Positions 6,410 through 28,343 of a stretch of 46,787 nucleotides of DNA are shown here, in pieces. The stretch is from NCBI RefSeq assembly GCF_003287355.1, contig NZ_QMIM01000009.1, forward strand, positions 1 to 46,787, read 5' to 3'. The position numbers were made by a program, and so were the translations under genes. Numbering within the stretch: position 1 is the first letter of the stretch; every line of letters starts with the position of its first letter. Source of the stretch: Halorubrum sp. 48-1-W. Lineage in GTDB: Archaea > Halobacteriota > Halobacteria > Halobacteriales > Haloferacaceae. Below the pieces are notes generated by a model. That model was not told where the DNA came from and searched no databases. It saw nothing but the letters and a program-made list of their open reading frames with translations.

Positions 6410-6420
6410 CTAACGGCGCG
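6372..6420. repeat. 24-bp tandem direct repeat at the mftE 3' end
   Basis: The 24-bp word beginning CTCGAACACTATCCTAACGG occurs at 6372-6395 and again at 6397-6420, separated by one base. The stop codon of mftE (complement of CTA at 6410-6412) lies in the second copy, and the first copy duplicates it just outside the gene. This looks like a recent slippage or insertion scar. Confidence 0.9.
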
Positions 6421-7192
6421 CGTTGAGTTCGTGGAACTCGTCTCGGATATACGCCGTATACGCGTCCGCGATATGTTCCAAGAGCACTTCTCCGGCAGCC
6501 GCGGTCGCTGGCCTCGCATCACCGAGAACACCGCTTTCATCATATGTCTCTACGCCGTCAGCAAATAACGCCGCAGCAGAGACCGTTCCGGTGTGTCCTT
6601 CGGGGAGGTCGCCTTCCACGAGCGATGGTTCAATAGCGAGAAGCATCGCAGTCTCGCTGGCACCTGCGTGAACGACGGGTTCGTCGACGTCGATTCCTGC
6701 GGCTGATAACCCTTCGTCAAGCAGTTCCATGTACCGTTGGAGTCTCGTAATGGCGACTAGATCCACCCCTTCCGTCCGGGCGAGTTCCGCGTATGCGGCG
6801 TCAACTATGGAAAACGAACCTCCGTGTCCAGGAAGTATCACAACCCGGGTGAACCCCTGACTCTCGAAAGATGAGACGTAATCACGAAGCACTGCCGTGA
6901 GTGTATCCGGAGAGATAGAGAGGGTGCCAGGGAACGCGGCGTGTTCGTCGGAAGGCCCGACTGGCACAGGAGGGGCAACAAGAGCATCCTCGAGGTTTCG
7001 AGCGATACGTTCCGCGAGTGCCGTCGCGATTCGGGTGTCCGTCCCGACTGGGAGATGTGGCCCGTGTTGTTCGGTTGCGCCGAGCGGAACGATGATCGTA
7101 TCTACACCTCCTTGAACCGCGGATTCGATCTCTTGCCACGTCAGATCGGCCAGCGTCACGTGGTCAGTGTCACACACGGCCGTATCGTTCAC
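6410..7192 (-). CDS. mftE: Mycofactocin peptidase MftE (creatininase family)
   Basis: This is a metal-dependent peptidase of the creatininase fold. In the mycofactocin pathway MftE cleaves the C-terminal Val-Tyr dipeptide, already modified by MftC, from MftA. The protein has the family metal-binding motifs VPLGATEQHGPHLPVGTDTR (Glu, His, Asp ligands), ILPGHGG and HAGASETAMLL. The length of about 260 residues is normal. A GTG at 7192 is chosen as start; an in-frame TTG at 7204 or a later GTG are alternatives. It is divergent from mftA with about 130 bp between, so both can share a regulatory region. Adjacency to mftABC separates it from other creatininase-family amidohydrolases. Confidence 0.9.
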   Translation of the reverse strand: MNDTAVCDTDHVTLADLTWQEIESAVQGGVDTIIVPLGATEQHGPHLPVGTDTRIATALAERIARNLEDALVAPPVPVGPSDEHAAFPGTLSISPDTLTAVLRDYVSSFESQGFTRVVILPGHGGSFSIVDAAYAELARTEGVDLVAITRLQRYMELLDEGLSAAGIDVDEPVVHAGASETAMLLAIEPSLVEGDLPEGHTGTVSAAALFADGVETYDESGVLGDARPATAAAGEVLLEHIADAYTAYIRDEFHELNARR

Positions 7193-7292
7193 CTGATGAT
7201 ACAAGATTGTTCTCCTCGATAAGCTACAGCGACTCTCCTCGTCTCCAATGGACCAAGAGAGATTCCCGTGTAAATGGGAGGGTATCCAAACG

Positions 7293-7302
7293 TATTTAGT
7301 AA
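7293..7302 (+). promoter_or_regulatory. Probable TATA box of the mftA operon
   Basis: The sequence TATTTAGTAA is centred about 27 bp before the mftA ATG at 7325. In haloarchaea a TATA centre at this distance predicts transcription starting at or within a few bases of the ATG, that is, a leaderless mftA message. No purine-rich ribosome-binding site is visible before the ATG, which fits. Confidence 0.5.
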
Positions 7303-7324
7303 TCTATTGTGTGGTTGATACTGT

Positions 7325-7444
7325 ATGTCACAGTCAGCCGATTCAAGCGACGATACTGAGCAGTCCACAACTGACGAGCCCGATATCGAGGAAGATCTCT
7401 TCGAGGAAGAGCTCCGAATCGATGGAATATGTGGCGTCTACTAG
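7325..7444 (+). CDS. mftA: Mycofactocin precursor peptide MftA
   Basis: This 39-residue acidic peptide starts MSQSADSSDD and ends LRIDGICGVY followed by TAG at 7442-7444. The C-terminal IDGxCGVY block is the hallmark of MftA. MftC decarboxylates the terminal tyrosine and cross-links it to the penultimate valine, and MftE then releases the Val-Tyr-derived core. The leader contains the acidic segment EEDLFEEEL before the core, as in actinobacterial precursors, and would bind MftB. It lies two bases upstream of mftB and opens the mftABCF operon. Ile replaces the Met found at the IDGMCGVY position in mycobacteria. Confidence 0.96.
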   Translation: MSQSADSSDDTEQSTTDEPDIEEDLFEEELRIDGICGVY

Positions 7445-7445
7445 C

Positions 7446-7688
7446 ATGACCACGAAACTGGCGAGGCCCGATCACATCAAATTCAGGCGGGAGGCGGAAG
7501 GAGGGCTCGTGTACGATCACGAAAACTACGGCTACGAGGACGCGTCCATGTACGAAGTGAGCGACACGGTTATTGACGTGTTAGAGTACATCGACGGAGA
7601 ACGACCTCGACAGGCCCTCGAGGAGGAGTTTTCGCCGGGCGTCGTCGAAACACTATTACAGCGTGGAGTCATCACAAATGTCGAGTGA
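7446..7688 (+). CDS. mftB: Mycofactocin chaperone MftB (PqqD-like RRE protein)
   Basis: This 80-residue protein has a PqqD-like winged-helix layout: KFRREAEGGLVYDHENYGYEDASMYEVSDTVIDVLEYIDGERP, then ALEEEFSPGVVETLLQRGVITNVE. MftB binds the MftA leader and presents it to the radical SAM enzyme MftC. The ATG at 7446 is two bases after the mftA stop. An open frame extends upstream to 7248 but overlaps mftA in another frame, so the internal ATG is preferred. The last codons overlap the mftC start by 11 bases, implying translational coupling. The protein is slightly short for the family but all expected segments are present. Confidence 0.93.
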   Translation: MTTKLARPDHIKFRREAEGGLVYDHENYGYEDASMYEVSDTVIDVLEYIDGERPRQALEEEFSPGVVETLLQRGVITNVE

Positions 7689-8637
7689 ACCGCTTTCGGC
7701 ACCGGTCACGATCACGTGGGAGGTGACGCTGGGTTGTAACCTCCACTGTGACCACTGCCTGTCGGGAAGCGGCCCGGGCCACCAGCTACCGAACGAGCTC
7801 ACGACAGATGAGGCTCGTGAGTTCATCGCGGAACTCGATCGGATGGACGTGTTCCAAGTGAACATCGGTGGTGGCGAACCCTTCATCCGTCCCGATATGC
7901 TGGAGTTGCTCGAGGAACTCACGAGTCGTGACATTTCGACGTGCGTGAGTACGAACGGAACGCAGCTCGATGAGGCGACACTCGACCGTATCGAGGCGAT
8001 GGACCCACTGTTCCTTCAAGTGAGTATGGATGGTCTCCAAGCGGAAAACGACGCCATTCGTGGTGACGGCGTGTATGACCAAGTCGTCGATTCCCTCAAC
8101 CGGTTAGAAGACCGTGACATCGGCACGACAGTAAACACGGTCGTCACTCGACAGAACGTCGAAGATCTGTCCAAAATATATGACCTCGCAACATCGCACG
8201 GTGCCGGCCTCCGGCTAAATCGATTCCGCCCGAGTGGCCGCGGCGAGGACACGTGGGACGAGTTCCGCCTCACGGAAGATCAGATACGGTTCCTCCACGA
8301 CTGGATCGACGATCATCCCGACGTCCGAACCGGCGATTCCTTCTTTTATTTAAATGCGCTCGGTGAGGTTAGAAATAACACGCTCAAACAATGCGGTGCC
8401 GGATCAATGACGTGTCTCGTTGATCCCGCCGGTGACGTGTTCCCCTGTGCGTTCACACAGTGGGATCATCTCGCCTCCGGGAACGTAACGGACGACGGGT
8501 TCCAGACGGCGTGGGACGAAATCGCGAACCTCCGTAGTCGGATCGACGACCACGAGGGATGTCCCGCGGTCGCGATGGGTAGCTCCGACCCCGACGGCGA
8601 AGACCCTCAGCTACGGGCCATTCTCTCGGGCGACTGA
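7678..8637 (+). CDS. mftC: Mycofactocin radical SAM maturase MftC with reduced SPASM domain
   Basis: This 319-residue radical SAM enzyme acts on the C-terminal Val-Tyr of MftA, by oxidative decarboxylation and then C-C bond formation. The CxxxCxxC cluster is Cys20, Cys24 and Cys27, followed by GGGEPF (residues 64-69) and the strand motifs CVSTNG and LQVSMDG. The SPASM region begins correctly with Cys239-x12-Gly-x4-Cys257 and contains LGN-like SGNVTDDGF. After that only EGC295PAVA is left of the usual CxxCx5CxxxC block, and the protein closes DPDGEDPQL where the family generally has a final Cys after DP. Three or more auxiliary cluster ligands are therefore missing. ATG 7678 is preferred over the upstream GTG 7663. 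Confidence 0.92.
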   Translation: MSSEPLSAPVTITWEVTLGCNLHCDHCLSGSGPGHQLPNELTTDEAREFIAELDRMDVFQVNIGGGEPFIRPDMLELLEELTSRDISTCVSTNGTQLDEATLDRIEAMDPLFLQVSMDGLQAENDAIRGDGVYDQVVDSLNRLEDRDIGTTVNTVVTRQNVEDLSKIYDLATSHGAGLRLNRFRPSGRGEDTWDEFRLTEDQIRFLHDWIDDHPDVRTGDSFFYLNALGEVRNNTLKQCGAGSMTCLVDPAGDVFPCAFTQWDHLASGNVTDDGFQTAWDEIANLRSRIDDHEGCPAVAMGSSDPDGEDPQLRAILSGD

Positions 8638-8643
8638 CTCCGT

Positions 8644-10953
8644 ATGCCGGGAGATGGGTCGATGCGGGCTCACGGGGAGTATCGCCTTCGAAACGGGGTC
8701 ACGGTTCCTGGCACCATCCTCGTCTCCACGCAACCGCTCCTTGCGACGCGACTCAACGAGACCGCTATCGAGGCTGTCCACGCACTCGAGAGTGAAACGT
8801 TTCGATCGCCGACGGCGGTCGCCTCGGAGCTCGGACGTGACGCCGAGCCGGTCGTACAACTGTTTGAACGGCTCCATCGACGCGGATTTCTCGAGTGGCG
8901 GCCCGCCCGGGATCGCCAATTTAGACCGCCCGTATCGATCGTCGTGACGGTCCGAAACGACCGTACCTCGCTTGAACGGTGTCTCGACGCACTAGCCGAA
9001 CTCGAGTATCCGATGTACGAGGTAGTGGTGGTTGACGACGGATCAACGGACGGCACCAACGAGATGGCCAGAAACTACGACATGGTCGGAACCGGTCGTG
9101 TTCACGTGCTGTCGGTGGGACGTTCCACCGATCCGCTAGGCATCGGTGCCTCACGAAACCGTGGTGTCGCCGCAGCTACTCACGACGTCGTCGCGTTCAC
9201 TGACGCGGACTGTCGCCCGCGGGCGGACTGGCTTACCGACCTCGTCCCGATCCTCAGAACTGCCGACCTCGTCGGGGGTCGGATCCGCCCCGCAGGTGAG
9301 ACAGCCGCGAGCGTATACGAGGGGATTAACTCTTCACTGGATATGGGCGCCTACGCGTCACGAGTGGAGCCCGGAGGGAACGTCCCGTATCTAGCGACGG
9401 CGAACTTGATCGGCCACCGCTCCGCGTTCGAATCCGTCCCGTTTCCCGATCGGAGTATCGCCGAAGATGTGGACGTGTGCCGGCGCGCTATCGCGGCTGG
9501 ACTCGAGGTCGTGTACTCGCCAACTGGGGTCGTCGAGCATGTCTATCGAGACGGGAAACGCGACTTCGCCAGCCGTCGCACAGCGTACGGTTCGTCGGAG
9601 GCGTTGCTCGCGCGCGACTACGGTCGTGATGGCTCCGGAGGCGTCGGTGTACCAACGCTCCTCCCATTCGCCGTTATACTCGGGTTGCTTGCGACTTTCG
9701 GTTCGGCCGTGGTCTCTACTGTCACGGTCGGAGTGATGGCGATATCGCTCGGTCTCCTCGGAAGTTTCCGTGGGTGGCATCTCTGGCGGCGGTACGGGCA
9801 GCTCCCCCCGATTATTTCGGCGTCCGACGTGCTACGGAGCTGGGGTCGTGAGCGGCTTTCGTCGACGTATACCGTCTCGCGAGAGGTCACGCGGTACTAC
9901 GCGGGACCAGCACTCTTTCTCGGTGTCTTGGCATGGGGAGCGGGGATGCAGACGGTGGGGGGCGGCATCATCGGTGTGACTATCACCGCAATAGCGCTCC
10001 CGATGGCCGTCGAATATCGCGTCCACGATCCGGACACGTCGCTACTTGGCTACGGAACGTACTACGCTGTAGACCACTTCGGATATCAGTACGGGGCCTA
10101 TCGCGGAGCGTTCGTCTACCACACGTTCAGCCACCTCAATCCGCTGACGCGGTTTCGACTCACGGGACCCGGGGCAACGTTCTTCGCACGACTACGTATC
10201 GGCCGTGAGACATCGCCCACAGAGACGCTTACCATCGGGACCGTAACGGGTCGGTTCAACGTCGATTCATCGGCAGAAGAGTGGTGGTTCAGGGATGACC
10301 AGCTCAGGGGCGAACGTCCGGTCGTCGCCGATCTGCTCGAACGGATCGAATCCGACGACACGTTCCTCGACGTCGGCGCAAACATCGGGATCTACAGTTG
10401 TCTGGTCGGCCGTAAACTCGACGAGGGGACCGTCATCGCTGTCGAGCCTCATCCGGAGAACGCGGCGCGGCTCGCGGAGAACCTGTCGATGAACGGTGTC
10501 GATTCACTGGTGGTTCGAAAGGCGCTCGGATCCGAAAACGGACGTGGGGCGCTGGCAAGCCCGGACGATACAGTGGCCGGGAGCGGAACACACACCCTCC
10601 TCACGGAACGGGACGCGTCGACCGACTCCGTGTCGTCCTCAACGGATCGGTCGCTGTCGACGCCAGTCATGACGGGAGATTCGTTGGTGGCATCAGGTGA
10701 GAGACCACAACCGACGGTGATCAAGATCGATGTCGAAGGCACGGAAGGTGACGTACTCGACGGCATGGACGAGGTCTTGTCGGACCCATCGTGTCGACTG
10801 GTGTACTGTGAGCTCCATCCGGACTCACTCTCAAAACACGGCGCGACCACTGAACGAGCAACGACCATCCTCCACGAGAAGGGATTCTCCGTGACACGTG
10901 TTCAGGACCTCCCGGACGAACGCACTATCGTTCGAGCCGAAAAGACGGAGTGA
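8644..10953 (+). CDS. mftF: MftF-type glycosyltransferase fused to an FkbM-family methyltransferase
   Basis: Domains run in order. An N-terminal PqqD-like/RRE-type segment (residues about 13-85) leads into a GT2 catalytic domain (95-330) with VSIVVTVRND, DDGSTDGT (131-138), the DxD motif Asp187-Asp189 and the AEDVD motif (273-277). Membrane-associated hydrophobic segments lie at about 338-374 and 420-456, followed by the MftF-like tail DPDTSLLGYGTYYAVDHFGY. Residues about 560-765 form a FkbM-type SAM methyltransferase with FLDVGANIGIYSC (motif I), VIAVEPHPENAARL, KIDVEGTEGDVL and YCELHP. MftF attaches a beta-1,4-glucose chain to the mycofactocin aglycone, and the extra domain would methylate a sugar hydroxyl. 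The usual MftF is about 470 residues; this one has 769. It starts six bases after mftC and ends 12 bases before an IS remnant. Confidence 0.92.
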   Translation: MPGDGSMRAHGEYRLRNGVTVPGTILVSTQPLLATRLNETAIEAVHALESETFRSPTAVASELGRDAEPVVQLFERLHRRGFLEWRPARDRQFRPPVSIVVTVRNDRTSLERCLDALAELEYPMYEVVVVDDGSTDGTNEMARNYDMVGTGRVHVLSVGRSTDPLGIGASRNRGVAAATHDVVAFTDADCRPRADWLTDLVPILRTADLVGGRIRPAGETAASVYEGINSSLDMGAYASRVEPGGNVPYLATANLIGHRSAFESVPFPDRSIAEDVDVCRRAIAAGLEVVYSPTGVVEHVYRDGKRDFASRRTAYGSSEALLARDYGRDGSGGVGVPTLLPFAVILGLLATFGSAVVSTVTVGVMAISLGLLGSFRGWHLWRRYGQLPPIISASDVLRSWGRERLSSTYTVSREVTRYYAGPALFLGVLAWGAGMQTVGGGIIGVTITAIALPMAVEYRVHDPDTSLLGYGTYYAVDHFGYQYGAYRGAFVYHTFSHLNPLTRFRLTGPGATFFARLRIGRETSPTETLTIGTVTGRFNVDSSAEEWWFRDDQLRGERPVVADLLERIESDDTFLDVGANIGIYSCLVGRKLDEGTVIAVEPHPENAARLAENLSMNGVDSLVVRKALGSENGRGALASPDDTVAGSGTHTLLTERDASTDSVSSSTDRSLSTPVMTGDSLVASGERPQPTVIKIDVEGTEGDVLDGMDEVLSDPSCRLVYCELHPDSLSKHGATTERATTILHEKGFSVTRVQDLPDERTIVRAEKTE

Positions 10954-10965
10954 GAGCGGAGGGTA

Positions 10966-11581
10966 GTGTTTAGATGAGCTGATCCCATGCGAAGGCGAAC
11001 GCTTGCAACCGATTTTCAGCAGTACTCGGTTCGACGCGGCTAAACATATTTGAGAACTGGTTTGTTCGTCGTTTTACTTCACGAAAGACACGTTCGACGG
11101 CATTCCCACGTGTGACGTGTTGGAATCGGAGACCATGACGATGGCAGGCCGCCTGTAACCATGGCACACTGTCGACGAGAAAGACTGCGTTGTCAACCTG
11201 ATGTTTCTCACGCAGTTCAGAGAGAAACATCGAGGAGATCGCGTTGGTTCTCGTCGGATACAGCCGAACGCGGAGCCGGCGGTTCGTGTCGGGATTGACG
11301 GTAGCGTACAGCCAATATCACTCAGAATTGAGCTGAATCACGGTTTCATCGACCCGACGTGATTCGGATCAGTACCGTCTGTCGGCTGTAGAGCGGCCTT
11401 CTGTACCAACCGATGGAGGGTGGTTCGATGACGATCGACACCCACTTCTCAAGAACTCGAGTGTCGCCCCTCGCTCCAGAACACCTAACTCGATACGACC
11501 GCTATCGCCGTTGAGGCGGTCGAACGAGAGCATAGACCCCTCGAGCTTTTGACCGCCTCATCTTCCGACTTATTTCAGCAC
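10966..11581 (-). mobile_element. Degenerate IS6-family insertion sequence
   Basis: The ends resemble the element at 4980: left GTGTTTAGAT at 10966-10975, right TTATTTCAGCAC near 11570-11581. The minus strand keeps the transposase C-terminal half intact (10970-11230): FLSELREKHQVDNAVFLVDSVPWLQAACHRH, then GNAVERVFREVKRRTNQFSNMFSRVEP and FAFAWDQLI. The N-terminal half (11231-11560) is frame-broken, although NHVG/DETV-like and LTVAVNPDTNR-like pieces are readable. It follows the mftF stop by 12 bp. The remaining 11582-11699 holds nothing recognisable. Confidence 0.75.
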
Positions 11582-11699: not shown

Positions 11700-12872
11700 T
11701 CATGAGAGGTCTATGTACCCGCGAATATTATTCGTTTCTATCATATCGTTGTACGCCTCGTTGATCTCGTCTAAACTGTACGAGGCGGTCAGGTATCCTC
11801 CCTCTTCACCCAGTTGTAGATTTCCGGATTCGTACTGTTCGAGGAGCGTGGGCACCGCCAGGTTCGGACCCCATCCACCGTACAACGTTCCGGTTATATC
11901 ACGCTCGCCGAACGTGAACATAAGCGTTCCCCCTGCCTTTTCAGGGAGATCAATTCTCGTCGCGTCCGCAGGGTTGTTAGAGACGGAGACCAGTTGTCCC
12001 ATACTCTTCGTGGTGCTGTATGCTTCCCCCAGCGCCTCTGGTGTTCCAATCGATCCAGTGAATATTGCGACATCAGCCATTCGACCGTTAGTGATCGAAT
12101 CGACGAATTCCATCGGATCCGTCTCCTCAGGGTCAACGGTATGCGTTGCGCCAAATTCGGACGCTTTCTCGCGTTTGTACTCTGACGGATCGACGACGAC
12201 AATCTGATCAGCACTTTCCCGTCTGGATCCTTGAACCGCCGCTGCACCGACGCCCCCGAGACCGAAGTGAACCACGGTATCACCCGGTTCGATATCGGCT
12301 CTGTTCACTGCTGCACCGAATCCAGTCGCGGCAGCACACCCTGTCACTGCCGCAACCTCCCAAGGGACATCAGGGAACTCTTCAATTGACGTCACGCTGT
12401 CCCCATGCGTGACGATGTGCTCGGCATAGCAGCCCAGAAACGCGAACTGTCCGACATCGGTTCCGTCGTCCTTGTGCATCCGGAACGTCCCGTCCGGCAT
12501 CGTACCCGCCAATACCTGTTGTCCTCGCGTACACATCTCTTGATGTCCGGCAGTACAAAACCGGCACTTTCCACAGCTTGGGATCCACGATAGGACGACA
12601 CGATCGCCGGCTTCGACGTGCGTGACCGCATCACCGACTTCTTCGACGATGCCTGCTCCTTCGTGGCCCAGTGCACAGGGGTAGTGTTCGGTGGGCATAT
12701 CCCCAGATGCGACGTGCCAGTCACTGTGGCAGACCCCAACCGCCTTCACGTCGATGAGAACCTCATCTTTTTTCGGGTCATCTAGCGTGACTTCTTCAAC
12801 CTTGATATTGCCTCGTGAGCTGAAACGATCCTCTACCCCGGGTTCCTCGACATAGGCCACTTCTGTTTGCAT
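11700..12872 (-). CDS. NDMA-type zinc-dependent alcohol dehydrogenase (candidate mycofactocin-dependent nicotinoprotein)
   Basis: This 390-residue medium-chain dehydrogenase has catalytic zinc ligands Cys48 and His70-Glu71 (VCHSD, GHEGAG), a structural zinc site Cys100, Cys103, Cys106, Cys114 and a dinucleotide fold HFGLGGVGAAAVQG. The overall sequence fits the NDMA-dependent (Rxyl_3153-like) alcohol dehydrogenases that co-occur with mycofactocin genes and keep NAD tightly bound, using MFT as external acceptor. Position next to the mft locus supports this reading. An AT-rich stretch with TTATTTA lies about 30 bp upstream of ATG 12872. A plain NAD-dependent glutathione-independent ADH is the alternative. 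IS remnants flank it on both sides. Confidence 0.85.
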   Translation of the reverse strand: MQTEVAYVEEPGVEDRFSSRGNIKVEEVTLDDPKKDEVLIDVKAVGVCHSDWHVASGDMPTEHYPCALGHEGAGIVEEVGDAVTHVEAGDRVVLSWIPSCGKCRFCTAGHQEMCTRGQQVLAGTMPDGTFRMHKDDGTDVGQFAFLGCYAEHIVTHGDSVTSIEEFPDVPWEVAAVTGCAAATGFGAAVNRADIEPGDTVVHFGLGGVGAAAVQGSRRESADQIVVVDPSEYKREKASEFGATHTVDPEETDPMEFVDSITNGRMADVAIFTGSIGTPEALGEAYSTTKSMGQLVSVSNNPADATRIDLPEKAGGTLMFTFGERDITGTLYGGWGPNLAVPTLLEQYESGNLQLGEEGGYLTASYSLDEINEAYNDMIETNNIRGYIDLS

Positions 12873-12929: not shown

Positions 12930-13520
12930 GTGTTTAGTTAAGCGGGTTCCACCAAACGGTGAGGTCTCGTAACCACGTTTCGGCGGTCTCCGGATCGACG
13001 TGGCTAAAACTATTGCTAAACGAGGAAGTTCGTCGTTTTATTTCTCGAAAGATACGTTCGACAGCATTCCGATTCCCGCAGTGCGGCGGTTATATGTTGT
13101 GCGCGATCAACGACAAACGCGGCGTCAGAGATGTCGTGTTTCTCGCGAAGCTCTCGTAGAAACTGCTGTGTCAATACTGTTGTAGTGGTTGTACAGAGCC
13201 TCATGTGTAGATATTTCTTCGACTCGAGATCGACAGTTGCGGACAGCCAGATCGGCTGACCGTTGATTCGGAACACCGTTTCGTCGAGCGCAACGTGATC
13301 CGGGCTGGCGTCGCTGGCGGGCTACAGATCAGCCTTCTGAACCCAGTCATGAACAGCTTTCCGCAACCGTTTGACACCGAACTTTTCCAATTCTAAAAAT
13401 CTATTCGAAAGTGATCGTCCGGACAGATGAAGTCGAATACCAATCTCCATCAGCTTGAACGGTGTCCGCTCTCGCTCCCCAAATCTAACTCGATCCAGTC
13501 GCTACGTCGCTGAGTACTGC
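12930..13520 (-). mobile_element. Degenerate IS6-family insertion sequence
   Basis: The left end GTGTTTAGTTAAG at 12930 resembles the ends of the other IS6 remnants; the right end is not clear. On the minus strand the transposase middle is readable at 13016-13276: INGQPIWLSATVDLESKKYLHMRLC, then FLRELREKHDISDAAFVVDRAQHITAAL, after which frames break. Translation of 12940-13015 recovers the FSHVDPETAE-like end. N-terminal pieces (MEIGIRLHLSGRSL-like) occur around 13400-13450. It differs more from the 4980 and 46077 copies than those do from each other. Confidence 0.7.
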
Positions 13521-13544: not shown

Positions 13545-14402
13545 TCACAGTAACTGGTGTTCCTCGAGATACGTCACGACACGCGCTGCGGCGTCCTCGG
13601 GCGATGTATCGATCTGCTCTCCGACGCTCGATCCGCCGTCGCTGCCCCGTCCGAGCATTCGGTAGATGCGCTCCTCGACCGTCCCGGTTCGTGGCGGTCG
13701 ACCACGACCCCATCGTTCGTTGGGTGTCACATCTTCGATCGTCACAGGACCGACACTCATCGAGAATCGGGACTCTCTCGGCGCGACATCCTCCAGTGGC
13801 ACTGTTTCGATCTCGGCCTGCTGGCCGGCGACGATCGTCGAGAGCGGCGCACGGTCCGGATCCGTATAGCCGGCGTCGATCCCCAGTACCGTCGGCGACT
13901 GGACGACGACTGCCTCTTGCCGGCCGATCGCTAGTTTCCGCTGGACGGCGAGCTCACCCTGATCGACCGTGACATCGGCGTCGATATTCGGGGTGCCGAG
14001 TCGTGTCACCCGCGTCGCGACGGGCCAGTCCAGCCGTTCCCCGACGAGTGTCGCGATCTCGGATCCCGCGAACGAGGACGACTGCCCCACGACGACGACG
14101 TCCGGTGATTCGCGTGCAGCGACGCGGGCCAGTACGGTCGCGTACTTGTCCCCGGCCGCTTCCTCGATGGGATCGTAGGCCACGTGGAGCCCTTCGTCGG
14201 CGCTACGTTCGAGCGCCGCACGAACACAGCGCTGCGCCGTCTCTCCGCCGATGCCGACTGCTGTCACCTCCTCGGCAACGTCGCGGGCGGCTGCCAGCGC
14301 GACGCGATCGTCGATGCTCAATTGGGGGCGGTACGGCTCCGCGTTACCGTCTTCGTCGACGACCCGGTGAGGCTCGGAGCGCGCGGCGACGAGAGCCTTC
14401 AT
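13545..14402 (-). CDS. fixA: Electron transfer flavoprotein beta subunit (FixA-like)
   Basis: The 285-residue protein starts MKALVAARSEPHRVVDEDGN and continues with the ETF-beta landmarks: LSIDDRVALAAARDVAEEVTAVGIG, ESPDVVVVGQSSSFAGSEIATLVGERLDWP (AMP/nucleotide-binding part), VTVDQGELAVQRKLAIGRQEAVVVQSPTVLGID, and an unusual C-terminal tail (about residues 235-285) that is low in recognised motifs. It pairs with the FixB-like subunit encoded upstream and carries electrons from dehydrogenases to FixC/FixX. The ATG overlaps the TGA of the preceding SDR, so it is the last gene of the OYE-fixB-fixC-fixX-SDR-fixA operon. The separation of fixA from fixB by three genes is unusual. Confidence 0.88.
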   Translation of the reverse strand: MKALVAARSEPHRVVDEDGNAEPYRPQLSIDDRVALAAARDVAEEVTAVGIGGETAQRCVRAALERSADEGLHVAYDPIEEAAGDKYATVLARVAARESPDVVVVGQSSSFAGSEIATLVGERLDWPVATRVTRLGTPNIDADVTVDQGELAVQRKLAIGRQEAVVVQSPTVLGIDAGYTDPDRAPLSTIVAGQQAEIETVPLEDVAPRESRFSMSVGPVTIEDVTPNERWGRGRPPRTGTVEERIYRMLGRGSDGGSSVGEQIDTSPEDAAARVVTYLEEHQLL

Positions 14403-15178
14403 TGTGCCGTGTACCCTCCGTCGACCGGGATCGTGGCCCCGGTAACGAACGCCGCGTCGGCGGACGCGAGGAACGCGATCGCACGACCGATGTCTTCGGG
14501 GTCAGCGATCCCCAGCGGCGTCTCCTCTATCATCGACGCCATCGTCTCGGGGATGTCGCTGTCTCCCTCCGATTCCATGGCGGCTTCGAGCATCGGCGTC
14601 TCGACGACACCGGGACAGATGGTGTTCGCACGGATATCGGGTGCGTACTCGACAGCGATCGATCGAGTCAGCGAGACGAGCGCCCCCTTTGTCGCAGTGT
14701 AGATGTCCATCCCAGGTTCCGCGATCAGTGCGGCGATCGAGGCGTTGTTGACCACGACACCTGTTCCTTGGCCGGTATCGAGCATTGCCGGGATCGCATG
14801 CTTCGCAGCATACATCGGTCCCTTGAGGTTCACGCCGGTCAGAAACTCGTAGGCGTCGTCGTCGAACTCCGTGATCCGACTATCGGCCTCCTGTGAGGCC
14901 ACGGCCGCGTTGTTCACGAGGACGTCAACGCTCCCGAACGTCTTCTCCGCGTGCTCGATCATTCCTGCGACGGCATCCTCGTCGCTCACGTCGGCCTCGA
15001 CGAACGAGGCGTCGCCCCCGTCCGCGTCGGTAATGTACCCGGCCAACTCTTCACCGTCCTCGGCGGAGAGGTCTGCGACGACGACATCTGCGCCGCGCTC
15101 GGCGAGTATGCGACACGTTGCCGCACCGATCCCGCTCGCGCCACCGGTCACGATGGCCGTCTGGTCATCGAGATACAT
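14399..15178 (-). CDS. Classical SDR-family oxidoreductase inside the fix operon
   Basis: A 259-residue NAD(P)-dependent dehydrogenase with TGGASGIG (cofactor), NNAAV, catalytic Ser in NNASIAA, YTATKG (Tyr-x3-Lys) and PGVVETPM. Unlike the large SDR group elsewhere in the window, it has no extra PYDL-x-T-x3-L-x-ET insertion after the second strand, so it should exchange NAD(H) freely. The ATG at 15178 lies two bases after the fixX stop, and the gene overlaps fixA by four bases (ATGA), so it is clearly cotranscribed with the ETF genes. It probably oxidises a hydroxy intermediate of the pathway whose electrons enter the Fix system. The substrate is unknown. Confidence 0.88.
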   Translation of the reverse strand: MYLDDQTAIVTGGASGIGAATCRILAERGADVVVADLSAEDGEELAGYITDADGGDASFVEADVSDEDAVAGMIEHAEKTFGSVDVLVNNAAVASQEADSRITEFDDDAYEFLTGVNLKGPMYAAKHAIPAMLDTGQGTGVVVNNASIAALIAEPGMDIYTATKGALVSLTRSIAVEYAPDIRANTICPGVVETPMLEAAMESEGDSDIPETMASMIEETPLGIADPEDIGRAIAFLASADAAFVTGATIPVDGGYTAQ

Positions 15179-15180
15179 TG

Positions 15181-15471
15181 TCAGCCGAAGTCGAACTCCA
15201 CGCCCTTGCCGCCCTCTGCTTTCGACCACGAGACGGCGCCCTTGTCGGGGTCGTTCGCACAGAAGACCATACAGGCGCCACACTCCACGCACGGTTCGTA
15301 CGCGAAGTAGATACCGCCCTCCTGGTCCTCCTGATAGTCGAAACACTCCGCAGGACAGAGGTGTAGGCAGGGCTTGTCCTCGCAGGTGATACACTGTTCG
15401 TTGTCGACGGTGATGTGGGCGTCCTCGCTCACGTCCCACTCGACCGTCTCTAGATCGTCCTGGACACTCAT
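15181..15471 (-). CDS. fixX: FixX-like ferredoxin
   Basis: The 96-residue iron-sulfur protein contains CITCEDKPCLHLCP and YEPCVECGACMVFC, the ferredoxin pattern of FixX and of the C-terminal part of ETF-quinone oxidoreductase. It would work with FixC to pass electrons from the ETF to the membrane quinone pool. It starts MSVQDDLETVEW and ends in KGVEFDFG. It lies 84 bp after fixC and two bases before the SDR on the same strand. Confidence 0.92.
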   Translation of the reverse strand: MSVQDDLETVEWDVSEDAHITVDNEQCITCEDKPCLHLCPAECFDYQEDQEGGIYFAYEPCVECGACMVFCANDPDKGAVSWSKAEGGKGVEFDFG

Positions 15472-15555
15472 CGCTCTGTCTCTCCGTTGGTACCGGTTCG
15501 TGGTGTGTGTGAACTCATGGCTATGTATTGGTGTCGATAGGTATTGCTCTTTTGG

Positions 15556-16869
15556 TCACAGTGATCTGAGTCCTCGATACCCGTCCTTGAGTAGGTCGAG
15601 GACGCCGGCATCACTACGTCGGAACGCACGGTACGCCTGTCGCCACGTCAATCCGGACGCGTCGGTTTCCGCGGAGTACATCCTCCGGAGCGTCTCCGTC
15701 GCGATGCCCGGATACGCGTCGTACATCCGTTCGTTTTTCAGGAACTTCGGGAGGTGACGGTGTTGCTTCATGTCCTGGAGGACGTACGAATCCTCCAGAC
15801 TCGTGTCGTACCGTCGGCCGAACGCGTCCCAGTCCCCGTCCTCGGCACACTCCATTACGGCCTCGGCGGCAACGAGACCGCTCTTGATCCCGTAGTCGAG
15901 TCCCCGGAACGTGTACCCCTTGTTGAGTACGAGCCCCGCGGCGTCGCCGACGAGCGCGACCCGGCGATCGTGGCGGTCCGGGAGGGTATCGTAGGAGTGC
16001 TCGGGGACGAGGATCCCCTGGTACTCTTCGACGGCGTCGCCCTGGACGTATGGACGGACGTTGTCGAGTTCCATGAAGTCCTCCAACAGCGAGTACAGCG
16101 GGGTACCGGTCTCGCCGTACCCCTCGTCGCCGAGCCACCGGAGGGTTTCGAGACCCCCGACCGCGCCGACGGAGATGTACTCGTCGAACGTGTAGATGAA
16201 GTAGCCGATGGTGGCTGCGCCTTGGGGGAACCCCGTGTAGATGTATGCCGCTCCCTCGTCACTATCCAGGTTGAAGCGCTGGTCGATCGTCTTTCGGCCG
16301 ACGTCGATCACCTTCTTGACCGACAGCGCCATGTCCTCGTTGCGCATCGTTCGCTGGATCCCCGTCTTCCGACCGACCGTCGTGTTCACACCATCGGCGC
16401 CGATCACAGCGTCGCAGGCGATGTCGCCGTTCTCGCGGTCGGTGTGGACCACTGCACGGCTCTCCTCCTGTGTGACGTCTTGGACGGTCGTTTCCGAGAG
16501 GAACGTCACCCCCTTTTCGACCGCACGGTCGACGAACCATCGATCGAACTTCCCGAGTATCAGCGTGTAGTTTGGTTCCTCCCGGAGTTCGAGGTCGCGG
16601 TACCCGATGGAGACCTCTGCGTCGCCGTGGAGCAGTTTGATGTTGTGCTCGACCACGTGGCGTTCAAGCGGTGCTTCTTCCGGGAACTCCGGGACGAGGT
16701 CGTCCAGGATACTGCCGTAGAGTACGCCGCCGGTGACGTTCTTCATCCCCGGCTGTTTGGCACGTTCGACCAGGGCCACCTCGAACCCCTCGTCGGCGAG
16801 TTTGTAGGCGGCAGCGACGCCGGCCCGCCCGGCGCCGACAACCACCACGTCGAAGGCGACGTCCGTCAT
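15556..16869 (-). CDS. fixC: FixC-like ETF-quinone oxidoreductase (FAD)
   Basis: This 437-residue flavoprotein oxidises the ETF and reduces quinone together with FixX. The N-terminal FAD fold is VVVVGAGRAGVAAAYKLADEGFEVALVER. The family segments PGMKNVTGGVLYG, IGADGVNTTVGRKTGI, and the second FAD contact VALVGDAAGLVLNKGYTFRGLDYGIKSG are all present. The C-terminal helical part (HRHLPKFLKNERMY) is typical of FixC. The start ATG overlaps the stop of fixB (ATGA). Geranylgeranyl reductases share the fold, but the fixBX neighbours settle the assignment. Confidence 0.93.
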   Translation of the reverse strand: MTDVAFDVVVVGAGRAGVAAAYKLADEGFEVALVERAKQPGMKNVTGGVLYGSILDDLVPEFPEEAPLERHVVEHNIKLLHGDAEVSIGYRDLELREEPNYTLILGKFDRWFVDRAVEKGVTFLSETTVQDVTQEESRAVVHTDRENGDIACDAVIGADGVNTTVGRKTGIQRTMRNEDMALSVKKVIDVGRKTIDQRFNLDSDEGAAYIYTGFPQGAATIGYFIYTFDEYISVGAVGGLETLRWLGDEGYGETGTPLYSLLEDFMELDNVRPYVQGDAVEEYQGILVPEHSYDTLPDRHDRRVALVGDAAGLVLNKGYTFRGLDYGIKSGLVAAEAVMECAEDGDWDAFGRRYDTSLEDSYVLQDMKQHRHLPKFLKNERMYDAYPGIATETLRRMYSAETDASGLTWRQAYRAFRRSDAGVLDLLKDGYRGLRSL

Positions 16870-17870
16870 TCGGCCACCTCCTCGGTCTCTGCGGCCTCGT
16901 CGCCCGCTCTCGCCCGGCGAACTGCCTCGGCCAAGACGGGTCCGTACTCGTACACGTCGCCGACGATACCGATGTCGGCGAAGTTGAAGACGCGCGCGTT
17001 GGGGTCCGAATTGATCGGGATCAGATGGTCGGCATTCACCGAGCGCATGTGGTAGGAGTCACCCGAGATCGCGCAGGGAACGTAGACCTCAACGTCGATC
17101 TCCTTGCCTGTCACGCCGATCTGGCGGTCGTAGGGCACCCATCCTTCATCCGACGGTGGACGGGAGGCGCCGCTGGCGGCGCCGAACGCGTCCGCGAGGT
17201 CCTCGATCAGGTCGAAACCGTCCGCACTACCCAACCCGAAGCCACCGGCGACGATGCGGCGCGCCTTCGAGAGGTCGTCTTCCGGGACCTCGAACGTCTC
17301 AACGTGCCGGAGACGGCCGTCGTCGGCCACGTCGACCTCGACGGTGCGTTCGGTTGGTTCACCCTCGGGGTGCTGATCGGGCGTCCCGAGTGATTCGGTG
17401 TTGAGCGTCACCACAGGGGGCTCTCGTTCGAACTCAAACTCGGCGTACGCACGGCCGCCGTACACGGGTCGCCCGGCCCGCAGCTCGCCGTCTCGAACCC
17501 GCAGTAGGCAGTCGGTGACACAGGCCCCCCGCCGTCGCCGCGCCGTCGCCGCCGCGAGGTCGGTGCCATCTGCGGTATCGGGGAGCAGGACGGCTCGTGC
17601 GTCGTCGGTGAGTTCCGCGAGTGCCTGTGAGCGGGCGCGGATGCCCGCTGCGCCCGACGTGAACTCCCCCTCCTCGCGTGTCACGTGGAGTACCTCGTCG
17701 GGAGCTCCAGCTGCGGCTTTCTCCGGCGTGACGAGGCCGTCGAACGTGACGGCGACGACGGTGGGTTGTTCGGACACCGGACCCGCGTCGCCGATCGCCT
17801 CGGCGAGTCGGTGAGCTTCGTCCAGCAGTGCAACGTCGTCGTCGTCGGGTACGGCTACGATCCGAGTCAT
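16866..17870 (-). CDS. fixB: Electron transfer flavoprotein alpha subunit (FixB-like)
   Basis: A 334-residue ETF-alpha protein. The C-terminal FAD domain is clear: ARRIVAGGFGLGSADGFDLIEDLADAFGAASGASRPPSDEGWVPYDRQIGVTGKEIDVEVYVPCAISGDSYH (in pieces) and INSDPNARVFNFADIGIVGDVYE. The usual GISGAIQH motif reads AISGDSYH, so part of the flavin loop is altered although the His is kept. ATG 17870 is chosen over an upstream in-frame GTG at 17879. A 16-bp gap separates it from the OYE-type gene, and it overlaps fixC. It ends with a Glu-rich tail (GDEAAETEEVAE). Confidence 0.92.
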   Translation of the reverse strand: MTRIVAVPDDDDVALLDEAHRLAEAIGDAGPVSEQPTVVAVTFDGLVTPEKAAAGAPDEVLHVTREEGEFTSGAAGIRARSQALAELTDDARAVLLPDTADGTDLAAATARRRRGACVTDCLLRVRDGELRAGRPVYGGRAYAEFEFEREPPVVTLNTESLGTPDQHPEGEPTERTVEVDVADDGRLRHVETFEVPEDDLSKARRIVAGGFGLGSADGFDLIEDLADAFGAASGASRPPSDEGWVPYDRQIGVTGKEIDVEVYVPCAISGDSYHMRSVNADHLIPINSDPNARVFNFADIGIVGDVYEYGPVLAEAVRRARAGDEAAETEEVAE

Positions 17871-17886
17871 TGGTAGCACCTCATGG

Positions 17887-19824
17887 TCATGTGGATAGCT
17901 CCCGAGCGAGCATCTCGCCGTCGTAGATGGCTTTGTCGATCAGTCGCGGCGCGACGCAGTCGCCGATGCGGTGGACCGAATCGCCCGTGAATCCCTGTTT
18001 TACCAGCGCGTCGGCGAGGCCAGTCCGGGCCTCCCGACGTTCCGCAACCACGAGCGAGTCAGCGGAGACGGTGTTCACGTCTTCGGAGTAGACGTTGAGC
18101 AACTGTGCGGTGTTATCCTCGAAACCGATGATCGTGGCGTGGGTCTCGATGTCGACGCCATGCTCGTACAGTGTTTCGAGAAACGGCGGAACGTTTGTTC
18201 CCTCCAACTGATCACCCGGGTGGTAGGAAGTGGTCACGAAGGTCACGTCGTGATCGCCCGCGAGGTACTCCGCGACGCTGACTCCTGCTGCGTGTTTGTT
18301 GTTGTCGAAGACGATCACCGAGTCCCCGACTTCTTCGCCGCATAGGACGTCCCACGAGCGGTGAACGTCCGGTCCCTGTAGGTCGGGTTGGCTCTCGCTG
18401 GCGCCGATGGCGACGATCACGTCGTCCCACGCGTCGGAACTGACGTCCTCGGGGACGACTTCCGTGTTCGTTTCGACGGTCACGTCGCGGTTGTCCAGTT
18501 GGTTCTTTAGGTTCCGGACGGCATCGCCGAACTCCTGTCTGGAGTCGACCTGTGTAGCGATGTTCGACTGGCCGCCGAGTTGTTCCTCTCGCTCCCGGAT
18601 GGTCACCCGATGGCCGAGATCGGCGGCCGTCACCGCGAAAGAGAGTCCCGCGGGCCCGCCGCCGACGACGAGCACGTCCCGGGGCGCCGACGCCGGATCG
18701 CGGTCCTCGAGGTGGGGGATCTTCGTCTCCCTCCCGGATCGAGGCGTCTGGATACAGCCGACGTGACCGTTAGTGTGGATGCCACCCAGACAGTTCTGGT
18801 TACACGCAATACAGTGGGTGACCTCTTCGTCCTCGCCGCGCCGGACCTTCCGGACCGTGTCGGCATCGGCGATGAGTTGACGGCACATTCCGACGAAGTC
18901 CGCCCGGCCCTCCTCCAGCACGTCGTTGGCCTTCGTGAGATCGTTGATCCGACCGGCCGCAATGACTGGGATGTCGACTTCCTCCCTCGCTGCACCGTAG
19001 TACTCGGAGGTGTAGCCAAGCGGTGCGTGCATCGGCGCATCGGTGATGTACAGCTTCGAGATGGTGGCGATGTCGGAGTCGATGAAGTCCAAACTCGGGT
19101 GAAGGCGGCGGATCACCTCGACCGCGTAGTCGTAACCGTAGCCACCCTCCTCCATCTCGTCCAGCGTGAGCCGGATACCGACTGGGAAGTCATCGCCAAC
19201 CCGGTCTCGGATCGCCTCGACGACCTCGTTCACGAGCCGAACACGACCGTCCAGCGACCCGCCGTACTCGTCTTCACGGTGGTTGTACTTCGGCGAGAGG
19301 AACTGTCGAAGGATCCCGTCATGGCCGGCTTTGAGTTCGATCCCATCGAGATCGCCCCGTTTGACGTGTTCGGCGGTTTTGGCGAAGCCGAGTTTGATCT
19401 CCTCGATATCCCCCTTCTCCATTCGCTTTGGCATCTCGTAGCCGTACTCCGACGGAATCGCCGAGGGTGCCCACGTCTCCCGCATCGCGTGCTCGCCGGT
19501 ATCTTCCCCACCGGTATGTTGGAGCTGGGCGAACACCTTGGTCCCGTAGTCGTGAACTCTGTCCGCTATCATCTGGAGGCGCGGGACCACGTCAGGATCG
19601 TACCCCGAGGCGTACATCGGATTCGACGCGCTCGGGTGGACTAGCATGCTCGACGGGCCCATGATGAGACCCACGCCGCCGCGGGCCCGGGCCTCGTAGT
19701 ACGCTGCGTCGCGTTCCGTCGGCAGACCGTCCTCCGCGAACCCCGTCTCGTGGGCCAGGAACACCGTCCGGTTTGGGATAGTCACCGACCCGATTCGTCT
19801 CGGTGTGAAAAGCATGTCCGGCAT
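17887..19824 (-). CDS. OYE/2,4-dienoyl-CoA reductase (FadH)-type flavoenzyme, mycofactocin-system type
   Basis: A 645-residue modular flavoprotein. An N-terminal FMN TIM-barrel (residues about 1-330: LFTPRRIGSVTIPNR, QLQHTG, RQFLSPKYNHREDEYGGSLDGRVR, VIAAGRI) precedes the 4Fe-4S site Cys338-x2-Cys341-x3-Cys345-x11-Cys357. A FAD/NAD-binding part with VLVVGGGPAGLSFAV starts near 384. The family reduces C=C bonds of enals, dienoyl-CoA or steroids, or runs as demethylase. It matches the FadH/OYE enzymes recurrently found in mycofactocin regions. ATG 19824 is preferred because residues before it (to 19920) do not resemble the family. It is the promoter-proximal gene of the fix operon and has a paralogue at 37163. 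Confidence 0.88.
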   Translation of the reverse strand: MPDMLFTPRRIGSVTIPNRTVFLAHETGFAEDGLPTERDAAYYEARARGGVGLIMGPSSMLVHPSASNPMYASGYDPDVVPRLQMIADRVHDYGTKVFAQLQHTGGEDTGEHAMRETWAPSAIPSEYGYEMPKRMEKGDIEEIKLGFAKTAEHVKRGDLDGIELKAGHDGILRQFLSPKYNHREDEYGGSLDGRVRLVNEVVEAIRDRVGDDFPVGIRLTLDEMEEGGYGYDYAVEVIRRLHPSLDFIDSDIATISKLYITDAPMHAPLGYTSEYYGAAREEVDIPVIAAGRINDLTKANDVLEEGRADFVGMCRQLIADADTVRKVRRGEDEEVTHCIACNQNCLGGIHTNGHVGCIQTPRSGRETKIPHLEDRDPASAPRDVLVVGGGPAGLSFAVTAADLGHRVTIREREEQLGGQSNIATQVDSRQEFGDAVRNLKNQLDNRDVTVETNTEVVPEDVSSDAWDDVIVAIGASESQPDLQGPDVHRSWDVLCGEEVGDSVIVFDNNKHAAGVSVAEYLAGDHDVTFVTTSYHPGDQLEGTNVPPFLETLYEHGVDIETHATIIGFEDNTAQLLNVYSEDVNTVSADSLVVAERREARTGLADALVKQGFTGDSVHRIGDCVAPRLIDKAIYDGEMLARELST

Positions 19825-19833
19825 GGATTGTAT

Positions 19834-19848
19834 GTGGTTCTCTACCAC
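19834..19848. promoter_or_regulatory. Perfect 5-5-5 inverted repeat before the OYE gene
   Basis: GTGGT-TCTCT-ACCAC lies 10-24 bp upstream of the OYE start codon in the divergent promoter region. It could be an operator or a leader hairpin of the fix operon. Only the symmetry supports it. Confidence 0.3.
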
Positions 19849-19876
19849 GTATTGTTCGGACGAGGATAAAGGTGTA

Positions 19877-19889
19877 CCGCCGACGGCGG
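19877..19889. promoter_or_regulatory. Perfect palindrome next to the TATA box of the chelatase-like operon
   Basis: CCGCCG-A-CGGCGG (6-1-6) sits 11 bp upstream of the AT-rich TATA element at 19901. It is part of TACCGCCGACGGCGG, whose core resembles the inverted repeat at 23192-23208 ahead of the SDR array. This may be a shared regulator site. Confidence 0.35.
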
Positions 19890-19900
19890 GCCGGAAATTG

Positions 19901-19915
19901 TTTATAACGTTATAT
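19901..19915 (+). promoter_or_regulatory. Probable TATA element of the chelatase-like operon
   Basis: TTTATAACGTTATAT is centred about 27 bp before the ATG at 19935, predicting a leaderless or nearly leaderless transcript for the plus-strand operon. The element is itself nearly symmetrical, so it might also serve the divergent OYE gene. Confidence 0.5.
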
Positions 19916-19934
19916 CCCATTGGGAGATACTGAC

Positions 19935-23224: not shown

Positions 23225-23303
23225 CATGTATGATCAGGTAACTGTCGGTTGGGAACACACACCATGAGGTCTGATGACAAACAGTTGTTCCCGGAGAAAA
23301 CCC

Positions 23304-24125
23304 ATGCCAGAGTACGACTTTAGCGGCAAGGTAGCGTTCGTCACTGGTGCCGGTCACGGCCAGGGGCGCTCACACGCACAGCACTACGCGAAACACGGCG
23401 CGGATGTCGTCGTCACAGACATCTGTGAGAACATCGAAACGAATCCGTACGATCTCAGTACACCGGACGAGCTGGAGGAGACGGCAAGCATAATCGAGGA
23501 CGAGGGGCAAGAAGCGCTGGCTATCGAAATGGACGTTCGCGACGAGAGCCAGGTCAAGGCGGCGGTCGACCAAGCTGTCGACGAGTTCGGTCGCATCGAC
23601 ATTCTCGCAAACAACGCCGGCATCTTCAACGCCTCGGAGATGACGGAAATGGACGAGGCGATGTGGGACGAGATGATCGACACAAATCTGAAAGGTGTCT
23701 GGCTCTGCTCGAAACACGTCGGCCAACACTTCATTGAGCGGGGTGACGGTGGCAAGATCGTTACCACCTCATCGACGGCCGGCTTCGTCGGCACGCCTGC
23801 GAACGGGCACTACGTTGCCACGAAGCACGGAGTTCGTGGACTGACGAAGACGTTAGCGCTCGAACTCGCCGAGTACGACGTCAACGTCAATGCTGTCGCA
23901 CCCACGGGAATTAACACGCCGATGATCTCGGGCTACGTCGAATCCTACGGCGAGGAGATGCTCAACGAGATCGCTGAACTGACCGGCCCATTCAACCTCT
24001 TCGGCGACGGTGGGATGATCGAGGCCAAACATATCAGTGAAGCCTATCTGTGGCTGTCAAGTGACGCCGCTCGCTATGTCACCGGGATCACGCTCCCCGT
24101 TGACGCCGGAATGCTCGCGAAATAA
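23304..24125 (+). CDS. Mycofactocin-coupled SDR dehydrogenase, copy 1 of array
   Basis: A 273-residue SDR with TGAGHGQG (14-21), NNAGI (103-107), Ser156 region (KIVTTSS), Tyr170-x3-Lys174 and the C-terminal ISEAYLWLSSDAARYVTG. After the second strand it has the insertion CENIETNPYDLSTPDELEET (41-60), the mark of carveol-dehydrogenase-like, mycofactocin-coupled SDRs in which the loop encloses a non-exchangeable NAD. ATG 23304 is chosen because all paralogues start M-x-x-YDF; the open frame reaches upstream to 23274. First gene of the array. Its nearest relative in the window is copy 6 (both have DICENI and NPYD). Confidence 0.92.
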   Translation: MPEYDFSGKVAFVTGAGHGQGRSHAQHYAKHGADVVVTDICENIETNPYDLSTPDELEETASIIEDEGQEALAIEMDVRDESQVKAAVDQAVDEFGRIDILANNAGIFNASEMTEMDEAMWDEMIDTNLKGVWLCSKHVGQHFIERGDGGKIVTTSSTAGFVGTPANGHYVATKHGVRGLTKTLALELAEYDVNVNAVAPTGINTPMISGYVESYGEEMLNEIAELTGPFNLFGDGGMIEAKHISEAYLWLSSDAARYVTGITLPVDAGMLAK

Positions 24126-24142
24126 CAAGCGATCACGGGACA

Positions 24143-24970
24143 ATGCCAGGATACGACTTCGACGGTCAGGTCGCGTTCGTCACCGGCGCCGCTCACGGCC
24201 AGGGACGCTCGCACGCACAGCACTACGCGAAACACGGCGCCGATGTCGTCGTCACCGACGTCGGACAGAACATGGACACCGTACCGTACGATCTCGGTAC
24301 ATCGGACGAACTCGGAGAGACGGTACGTCTCGTCGAGGAGGAGGGGCAGGAGGCGCTCGCGATCGAGATGGACGTTCGCGACGAGAGCCAGGTCAAGTCG
24401 GCCGTCGATAAGGCGGTTGACGAGTTCGGCCATATCGACGTCCTCGCCAACAACGCCGGTATCGAGTCCATTACCGAGGCGACGGAGATGGACGAGGCGA
24501 TGTGGGACGAACTGGTCGACACGAACCTGAAAGGGGTCTGGCTCTGTGCGAAGCACGTCGGCCAGCACTTCATCGACCGTGGCGACGGCGGCAACATCGT
24601 CTCCACGGCGTCGACATCGGGGTTCACGGGTGTTCCGCTCGGGAACGCCCACTACGTCGCCGCTAAACACGGCGTTCGTGGGCTGACGAAGACGTTGGCG
24701 CTCGAACTCGCGGAGTACGACGTCAACGTCAACGCAGTCGCCCCCACGGCCATCGACACACCGATGGTCAGCGGGATGCTTGAGGCCTACGGCGAGGAGG
24801 TTCTCGACGAGGGTGCCGCCGCGCTCTCGGGCCCGTTCAACATCTTCGACCCGGGCGAGATGCTCGAATCGCGCGACATCAGCGAGGCGTACATGTGGCT
24901 CTCCAGCGACGCCGCACGCTACGTCACCGGGATCACGCTCCCAGTCGACGCCGGATTCCTCGCGAAGTAA
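24143..24970 (+). CDS. Mycofactocin-coupled SDR dehydrogenase, copy 2
   Basis: A 275-residue paralogue starting MPGYDFDGQV with TGAAHGQG, the nicotinoprotein-type insertion GQNMDTVPYDLGTSDELGET, NNAGIES, and HYVAAKHG as the Tyr-Lys motif. The region after the active site, APTAIDTPMVSGMLEAYGEEVLDEGAAALSGPFNIFDPGEML in pieces, is matched by the degraded copy at 32876. The gene lies 17 bp after copy 1. The spacer resembles the one between copies 3 and 4, suggesting duplication of a two-gene unit. Oxidises an unknown secondary alcohol, by family. Confidence 0.92.
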   Translation: MPGYDFDGQVAFVTGAAHGQGRSHAQHYAKHGADVVVTDVGQNMDTVPYDLGTSDELGETVRLVEEEGQEALAIEMDVRDESQVKSAVDKAVDEFGHIDVLANNAGIESITEATEMDEAMWDELVDTNLKGVWLCAKHVGQHFIDRGDGGNIVSTASTSGFTGVPLGNAHYVAAKHGVRGLTKTLALELAEYDVNVNAVAPTAIDTPMVSGMLEAYGEEVLDEGAAALSGPFNIFDPGEMLESRDISEAYMWLSSDAARYVTGITLPVDAGFLAK

Positions 24971-27521: not shown

Positions 27522-28343
27522 ATGGTAAACTACGACTTCAGCGGCCAGGTGGCGTTCGTCACCGGTGCCGGTCACGGTCAGGGCGAATCGCACGCCGAAC
27601 ACTACGCGAAACACGGTGCGGACGTCGTCGTCACCGACATCTGCGAGAACATCGACACGAACCCGTACGACATGAGCACGTCGACGGAACTGGAGGAGAC
27701 AGCCTCGGCGGTCGAGAACCACGGTCAGGAGGCGCTGATGATCGAGATGGACGTCCGCGACGAGGACCAGGTCGAGGCCGCCGTCGACCAGGCCGTCGAC
27801 CACTTCGGTCACGTCGATATCCTCGCCAACAACGCCGGCATCTTCAACGCCACGGACATGACGGAGATGGACGAGCAGATGTGGGACGACATGATCGACA
27901 CGAACCTGAAGGGTGTCTGGCTCTGCGCAAAACACGTCGGCCAGCACTTCGTCGAGCGGGGCGACGGCGGCAAGATAATCTCGACGACGTCGACTGCTGG
28001 TTTCACCGGTGCCCCCGGGAACGGCCACTACGTCGCCACGAAACACGGGGTGCGTGGCCTGACGAAGACGCTGGCGCTGGAACTCGCCGAGTACGACGTC
28101 AACGTCAACGCCGTCGCACCGACGGGCATGGACACGCCGATGATCTCGGGGTACGTCGAATCGTACGGCGACGAACTGCTGGAGGAGACGATGGCGATGA
28201 CCGGGCCGGCCAACGTCTTCGAACCCGGCGAGATGCTGCAACCCAAGGAGATCAGCGAGGCGTACATGTGGCTCTCCAGCGACGCCGCCCGCTACGTCAC
28301 CGGGACGACGCTCAAGGTCGACGCCGGGATGACCGCGAAGTAG
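27522..28343 (+). CDS. Mycofactocin-coupled SDR dehydrogenase, copy 6
   Basis: A 273-residue paralogue starting MVNYDFSGQV with TGAGHGQG, the insertion CENIDTNPYDMSTSTELEET, NNAGIFNATD, TTSTAGFTG, HYVATKHG and GYVESYGDE. It is closest to copy 1, with which it shares DICENI, NPYD, IFNA and the MISGYVESYG loop, although four genes lie between. ESHAEHYAKHG differs from the RSHAQHYAKHG of the rest. It ends the first SDR array, nine bases after copy 5. Confidence 0.92.
   Translation: MVNYDFSGQVAFVTGAGHGQGESHAEHYAKHGADVVVTDICENIDTNPYDMSTSTELEETASAVENHGQEALMIEMDVRDEDQVEAAVDQAVDHFGHVDILANNAGIFNATDMTEMDEQMWDDMIDTNLKGVWLCAKHVGQHFVERGDGGKIISTTSTAGFTGAPGNGHYVATKHGVRGLTKTLALELAEYDVNVNAVAPTGMDTPMISGYVESYGDELLEETMAMTGPANVFEPGEMLQPKEISEAYMWLSSDAARYVTGTTLKVDAGMTAK

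Follow-up and report, generated by a model that had tools for sequence, protein, structure and literature searches.

A haloarchaeal MftF homologue with a fused FkbM-type methyltransferase domain that may methylate the mycofactocin sugar chain

The mycofactocin (mft) cluster of Halorubrum sp. 48-1-W contains a gene whose product, judging by its sequence, can be described as an MftF homologue extended at its C terminus by an FkbM-type methyltransferase. The gene occupies positions 8644..10953 (+) of the 46,787-nucleotide stretch of DNA that we analyzed (the window) and is an uninterrupted ATG-to-stop frame of 769 codons. We consider it likely, with a probability of roughly 70%, that the protein is a bifunctional mycofactocin-decorating enzyme whose glycosyltransferase (GT) half adds sugars and whose FkbM half O-methylates a hydroxyl of the sugar chain. 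Its parts are as follows.

8644..10161 (+), residues 1-506: MftF part, with a small N-terminal domain, GT2 domain at 98-263, predicted membrane helices within ~339-461 and RFRL end
10162..10218 (+), residues ~507-525: linker of ~20 residues, variable between fused homologues
10219..10953 (+), residues ~526-769: FkbM-family SAM methyltransferase domain of ~245 residues, with DVGANIG, VEPHP and KIDVEGTE motifs

When the 769-aa protein was analyzed with hmmscan, the MftF profile TIGR03965 matched residues 23-500 (244.7 bits, E 1.8e-72) over profile positions 13-463 of 467; this score is far above those of other families and does not reach the curated cut-off of 280. The GT2 family PF00535 matched residues 98-263 (92.9 bits), while the C-terminal part passed the cut-offs of both TIGR01444 (fkbM_fam; residues 573-723, 96.6 bits, cut-off 37.7) and PF05050 (Methyltransf_21; residues 576-749, 62.3 bits, cut-off 22.7). 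These matches, in a single frame, bear out the original prediction that MftF is fused here to an FkbM-type methyltransferase, and the DVGANIG and KIDVEGTE motifs that it named are both present, as is VEPHP. Of the domain types for which it had proposed a search, GT2 and FkbM were recovered, but the PqqD Pfam model gave no match to residues 1-95 at E ≤ 0.01; residues 11-87 form a small beta/helical domain in an AlphaFold model. The MftF part terminates at an RFRL motif at residue 506, as it does in unfused homologues. Because alignments of standalone FkbM relatives to the fusion protein start at approximately residues 516-532, we place the beginning of the FkbM part near residue 526 (window position ~10219). 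The second enzyme had been predicted to span residues 560-769 (10320-10953), a start that would cost the domain its first ~35 residues.

With the exception of MftD, the surrounding region seems to contain a full set of genes for the synthesis and use of mycofactocin. The features of the island are listed below.

6410..7204 (-): mftE, creatininase-family peptidase (TIGR03964, 159.6 bits, cut-off 172; PF02633)
7248..7688 (+): mftB (MftB2) open frame (NF043018, 129.4 bits, matched from residue 72)
7325..7444 (+): mftA, precursor peptide MSQSADSSDDTEQSTTDEPDIEEDLFEEELRIDGICGVY, with a core conserved in all 14 mft loci
7663..8637 (+): mftC, radical SAM maturase (TIGR03962, 305.3 bits, cut-off of 265 passed)
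11700..12872 (-): NDMA-dependent-type alcohol dehydrogenase (TIGR03989, 399.9 bits, cut-off 440)
13545..19920 (-): mft-associated electron-transfer block (NF038209 and TIGR03997 matches, both below cut-off), containing the next six features
13545-14402 (-): ETF-like protein
14399-15439 (-): SDR
15181-15471 (-): FixX-like ferredoxin
15556-16869 (-): FixC-like flavoprotein
16866-17879 (-): EtfA
17887-19920 (-): OYE/FadH
23274-24125, 24143-24970, 27522-28343, 33779-34603 and 34638-35459 (+): five mycofactocin-coupled SDRs (TIGR03971, all over cut-off)

The mftA, mftB2 and mftC genes lie directly upstream of mftF, which six bases separate from mftC, and mftE is divergent. The true start of mftB is probably just after mftA, at ~7448, with the longer frame, which overlaps mftA, having been over-called. 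MftA ends in RIDGICGVY, so that its core reads IDGICGVY; the core reported from other mycofactocin producers is IDGMCGVY. No protein over the TIGR03966 cut-off for MftD was found in the 14 mft-bearing haloarchaeal genomes, the best reaching 154 of 470.85 bits, although their mycofactocin pathway is complete in other respects. An OYE/FadH-type flavoenzyme (TIGR03997-like) is present in this cluster, where MftD was not found, and such a flavoenzyme has reportedly been noted in an mft cluster of Saccharopolyspora. A second OYE-like protein is encoded further downstream in the window. The ETF-like, ferredoxin and FixC-like genes are present in all of the other mft loci as well, and in the window organism reduced mycofactocin may be re-oxidized via an ETF/quinone route rather than by MftG. 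Two short frames on the minus strand (10970-11230 and 13016-13276) resemble transposase remnants, the second matching PF00665 weakly, and the G+C content is lower around 5-8 and 11-14 kb, near the stretch carrying mftF and the alcohol dehydrogenase gene. The mft island may be mobile.

MftF was searched for across the genomes of the window's family (170), its genus (52), three other families (26, 125 and 146) and the order (392), and was found in 14 haloarchaeal genomes; mftF is carried by 3 of the 52 genomes of the genus. The haloarchaeal survey suggested in the original prediction recovered the fused architecture in 6 of these 14 MftF genes, from six genomes in two families: the window genome (G000), G458, G452, G088, Halobellus rarus (G122) and Haloterrigena turkmenica DSM 5511 (G344). 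The protein of G458 is 90% identical to that of the window, and the one of Haloterrigena turkmenica is a single RefSeq coding sequence of 783 aa, annotated just as MftF, on the closed plasmid pHTUR01. A genuine GT2-FkbM architecture, probably bifunctional, recurs in six species, in an mft-cluster setting and with intact SAM motifs. The original prediction had allowed that homologues might carry the second domain as a separate gene and that this one might be an assembly fusion. Since six independent assemblies carry the fusion, one of them as a single annotated coding sequence on a closed plasmid, an assembly or sequencing artefact joining two separate genes is effectively ruled out.

The MftF proteins of the other eight genomes, which include Halolamina pelagica (G050) and Halobellus inordinatus (G068), end with the RFRL motif or a short distance beyond it, and no separate fkbM gene was found near mftF in these eight loci of 18-19 kb. 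Because 8 of the 14 haloarchaeal MftFs lack it, the FkbM domain is dispensable for the mft cluster, and the broader expectation that archaeal mycofactocin is methylated is not supported as a general statement. Long open frames at some standalone FkbMs were considered as further fusions and rejected, as they read as high-GC frame extensions. Among the matches listed in a scan of genome contigs, most were unrelated bacterial GT2 enzymes and three were haloarchaeal MftFs; among those listed in the plasmid search, no bacterial MftF had an FkbM half. The two bacterial MftFs that we examined, from Thermomicrobium roseum (~515 aa) and Tsukamurella (~470 aa), are both without the FkbM domain.

The original prediction allowed that the FkbM domain might be of independent origin. 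A tree was built from 54 FkbM domains, 48 of them from standalone haloarchaeal proteins; in it, the six fused domains branch among the haloarchaeal standalone FkbMs, with which they share 32-44% identity, and form one clade (support 98/99) in which Haloterrigena turkmenica is sister to the rest. Haloterrigena turkmenica likewise branches first in an 11-row clade of the GT-half tree that contains every fused protein and has unfused genes nested within it. On that tree the fused or unfused label changes three times, most simply as one gain and two losses; constraining the fused MftFs to one clade was borderline rejected (p-AU 0.048) on a tree with many weak branches. Pairwise identities in the GT half rise and fall with those in the FkbM half (Pearson 0.98, in part owing to one close pair; Spearman 0.71). 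Because the fused FkbM domains form one clade, independent repeated fusions are unlikely; these sequence comparisons are best explained by a single fusion event, after which the two halves were passed on together, and the FkbM domain was likely lost later in some lineages.

Several observations bear on whether the methyltransferase domain is functional. The motifs DxGANxG, VEPHP, KIDVEGxE and VYCExH occur in all six fused proteins, and the residues that are invariant among 40 FkbM relatives are retained in the fused domain; the SAM pocket residues, whose lack of conservation would have counted against the original prediction, are conserved. Between the window genome and G458, a single pair, the dN/dS of the FkbM domain is 0.33 (Fisher P = 2.5e-4), close to that of the MftF half, which indicates that the domain is under purifying selection; across codons 570-640, where changes are few, dN/dS is not below 1. 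An AlphaFold model of the isolated domain (pLDDT 87.8) predicts a class I SAM methyltransferase fold, its best structural matches (Z ~17 over ~160-175 residues) being class I methyltransferases, including catechol O-methyltransferase. A PDB sequence search with an FkbM alignment returned one weak match only, 3tfw. PF05575, the family of the Vibrio cholerae O-antigen sugar methyltransferase RfbT, matched one fused homologue at 30.1 bits (cut-off 27.9) and the window protein at 25.5 bits, under the cut-off; this weak-to-moderate similarity fits a sugar acceptor. The GT half is well predicted in the full-length AlphaFold model, and the structures similar to it include those of processive synthases, hyaluronan synthase among them. 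For the FkbM half, which had an alignment depth of two rows, confidence in the full-length model is low, so that the arrangement of the two domains is not readable from it. Hydropathy and the AlphaFold model suggest paired membrane helices between residues 339 and 461, which would place the two catalytic domains on the same side of the membrane.

We propose that the N-terminal GT2 half puts sugars on the mycofactocin aglycone, by analogy with the mycobacterial MftF, which builds a beta-1,4-glucan on mycofactocin of which one glucose is 2-O-methylated (PMC7491314). The C-terminal half would be a SAM-dependent O-methyltransferase, captured from a standalone haloarchaeal FkbM gene, joined by a short linker behind the membrane helices and probably sharing the cytoplasmic side with the GT domain. 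It would most likely methylate a hydroxyl of the chain that the GT half builds, yielding methyl-mycofactocin glycosides, and a 2-O position would match the mycobacterial product.

The acceptor could also be something other than a hydroxyl within the chain. FkbM enzymes act on varied acceptors, so family membership does not fix the substrate, and the domain might methylate the aglycone, either at the lactam or at the phenolic group of the ring derived from tyrosine, or might act on a different small molecule; the catechol O-methyltransferase among the fold neighbours reflects shared fold only. We regard this as improbable, since the domain is fused to a sugar-adding enzyme and shows the PF05575 likeness. 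Somewhat more credible, if still unlikely, is that the domain methylates the non-reducing end and caps the growing chain, the fusion thereby setting chain length. The processive synthases among the neighbours of the GT half mean that a chain may form, a tethered methyltransferase would suit such a role, and mycobacterial chains reach nine glucoses, but the mycobacterial methyl group sits on the second sugar and elongation continues past it (PMC7491314).

A catalytically idle or structural passenger, left by a chance fusion, would be compatible with the eight MftFs that lack the domain and with a history of one gain and two losses. The SAM and FkbM signature residues are nevertheless all retained across divergence to ~45-57% identity, and together with the purifying selection this makes an idle domain very improbable. 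Methylation of a sugar-chain hydroxyl remains our preferred reading. In a more speculative extension, a single haloarchaeal fusion, independent of MftM, created a single-chain GT-methyltransferase whose product is a methylated mycofactocin of distinct chemistry; methyl transfer would be coupled to growth of the sugar chain and might cap it, and some lineages would later have dropped the domain, giving two forms of the cofactor. We put this forward only tentatively.

The window protein shares with the MftF family (TIGR03965; Rv0696 family) its GT2 domain, its place after mftC, a full-length profile match and the mft setting, and differs in the extra ~245-residue FkbM domain and in a score below the equivalog cut-off of 280. 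Standalone haloarchaeal FkbMs (TIGR01444, PF05050) have motifs and a fold like those of the fused domains but are separate genes of ~250-310 aa, whereas the fused domains form their own clade. MftM is not known to be an FkbM-family enzyme. The resemblance to mycobacterial MftM would lie in the proposed product type, a methylated mycofactocin glycoside. As the original prediction held, mycobacterial mycofactocin receives its methyl group from a separate protein, MftM (PMC11778925). In contrast to the fused haloarchaeal domain, MftM is encoded outside the mft cluster, in which no methyltransferase was found in mycobacteria (PMC7491314). The cluster on pHTUR01 has the same fused MftF and the same mft island as the window; a 2011 report by Haft described a Haloterrigena turkmenica mft cluster with a glycosyltransferase, and the word methyltransferase is absent from it (PMC3023750). 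Our literature search found no paper linking mycofactocin with Halobacteria and no chemical data on archaeal mycofactocin. The MftF-FkbM architecture is thus real, conserved and apparently undescribed, in a sequence already public and named only MftF.

To our knowledge, mycofactocin has been chemically characterized only in actinobacteria, and a methyltransferase fused to MftF offers a strong clue, from genome sequence, as to how the archaeal cofactor is built. Haloterrigena turkmenica, which is cultured and carries the fusion on a closed plasmid, allows a direct test of cofactor methylation. If the proposed activity is correct, methylated mycofactocin would have been reached by two evolutionary routes, one of them haloarchaeal, which would suggest that methylation of this cofactor is useful rather than incidental.
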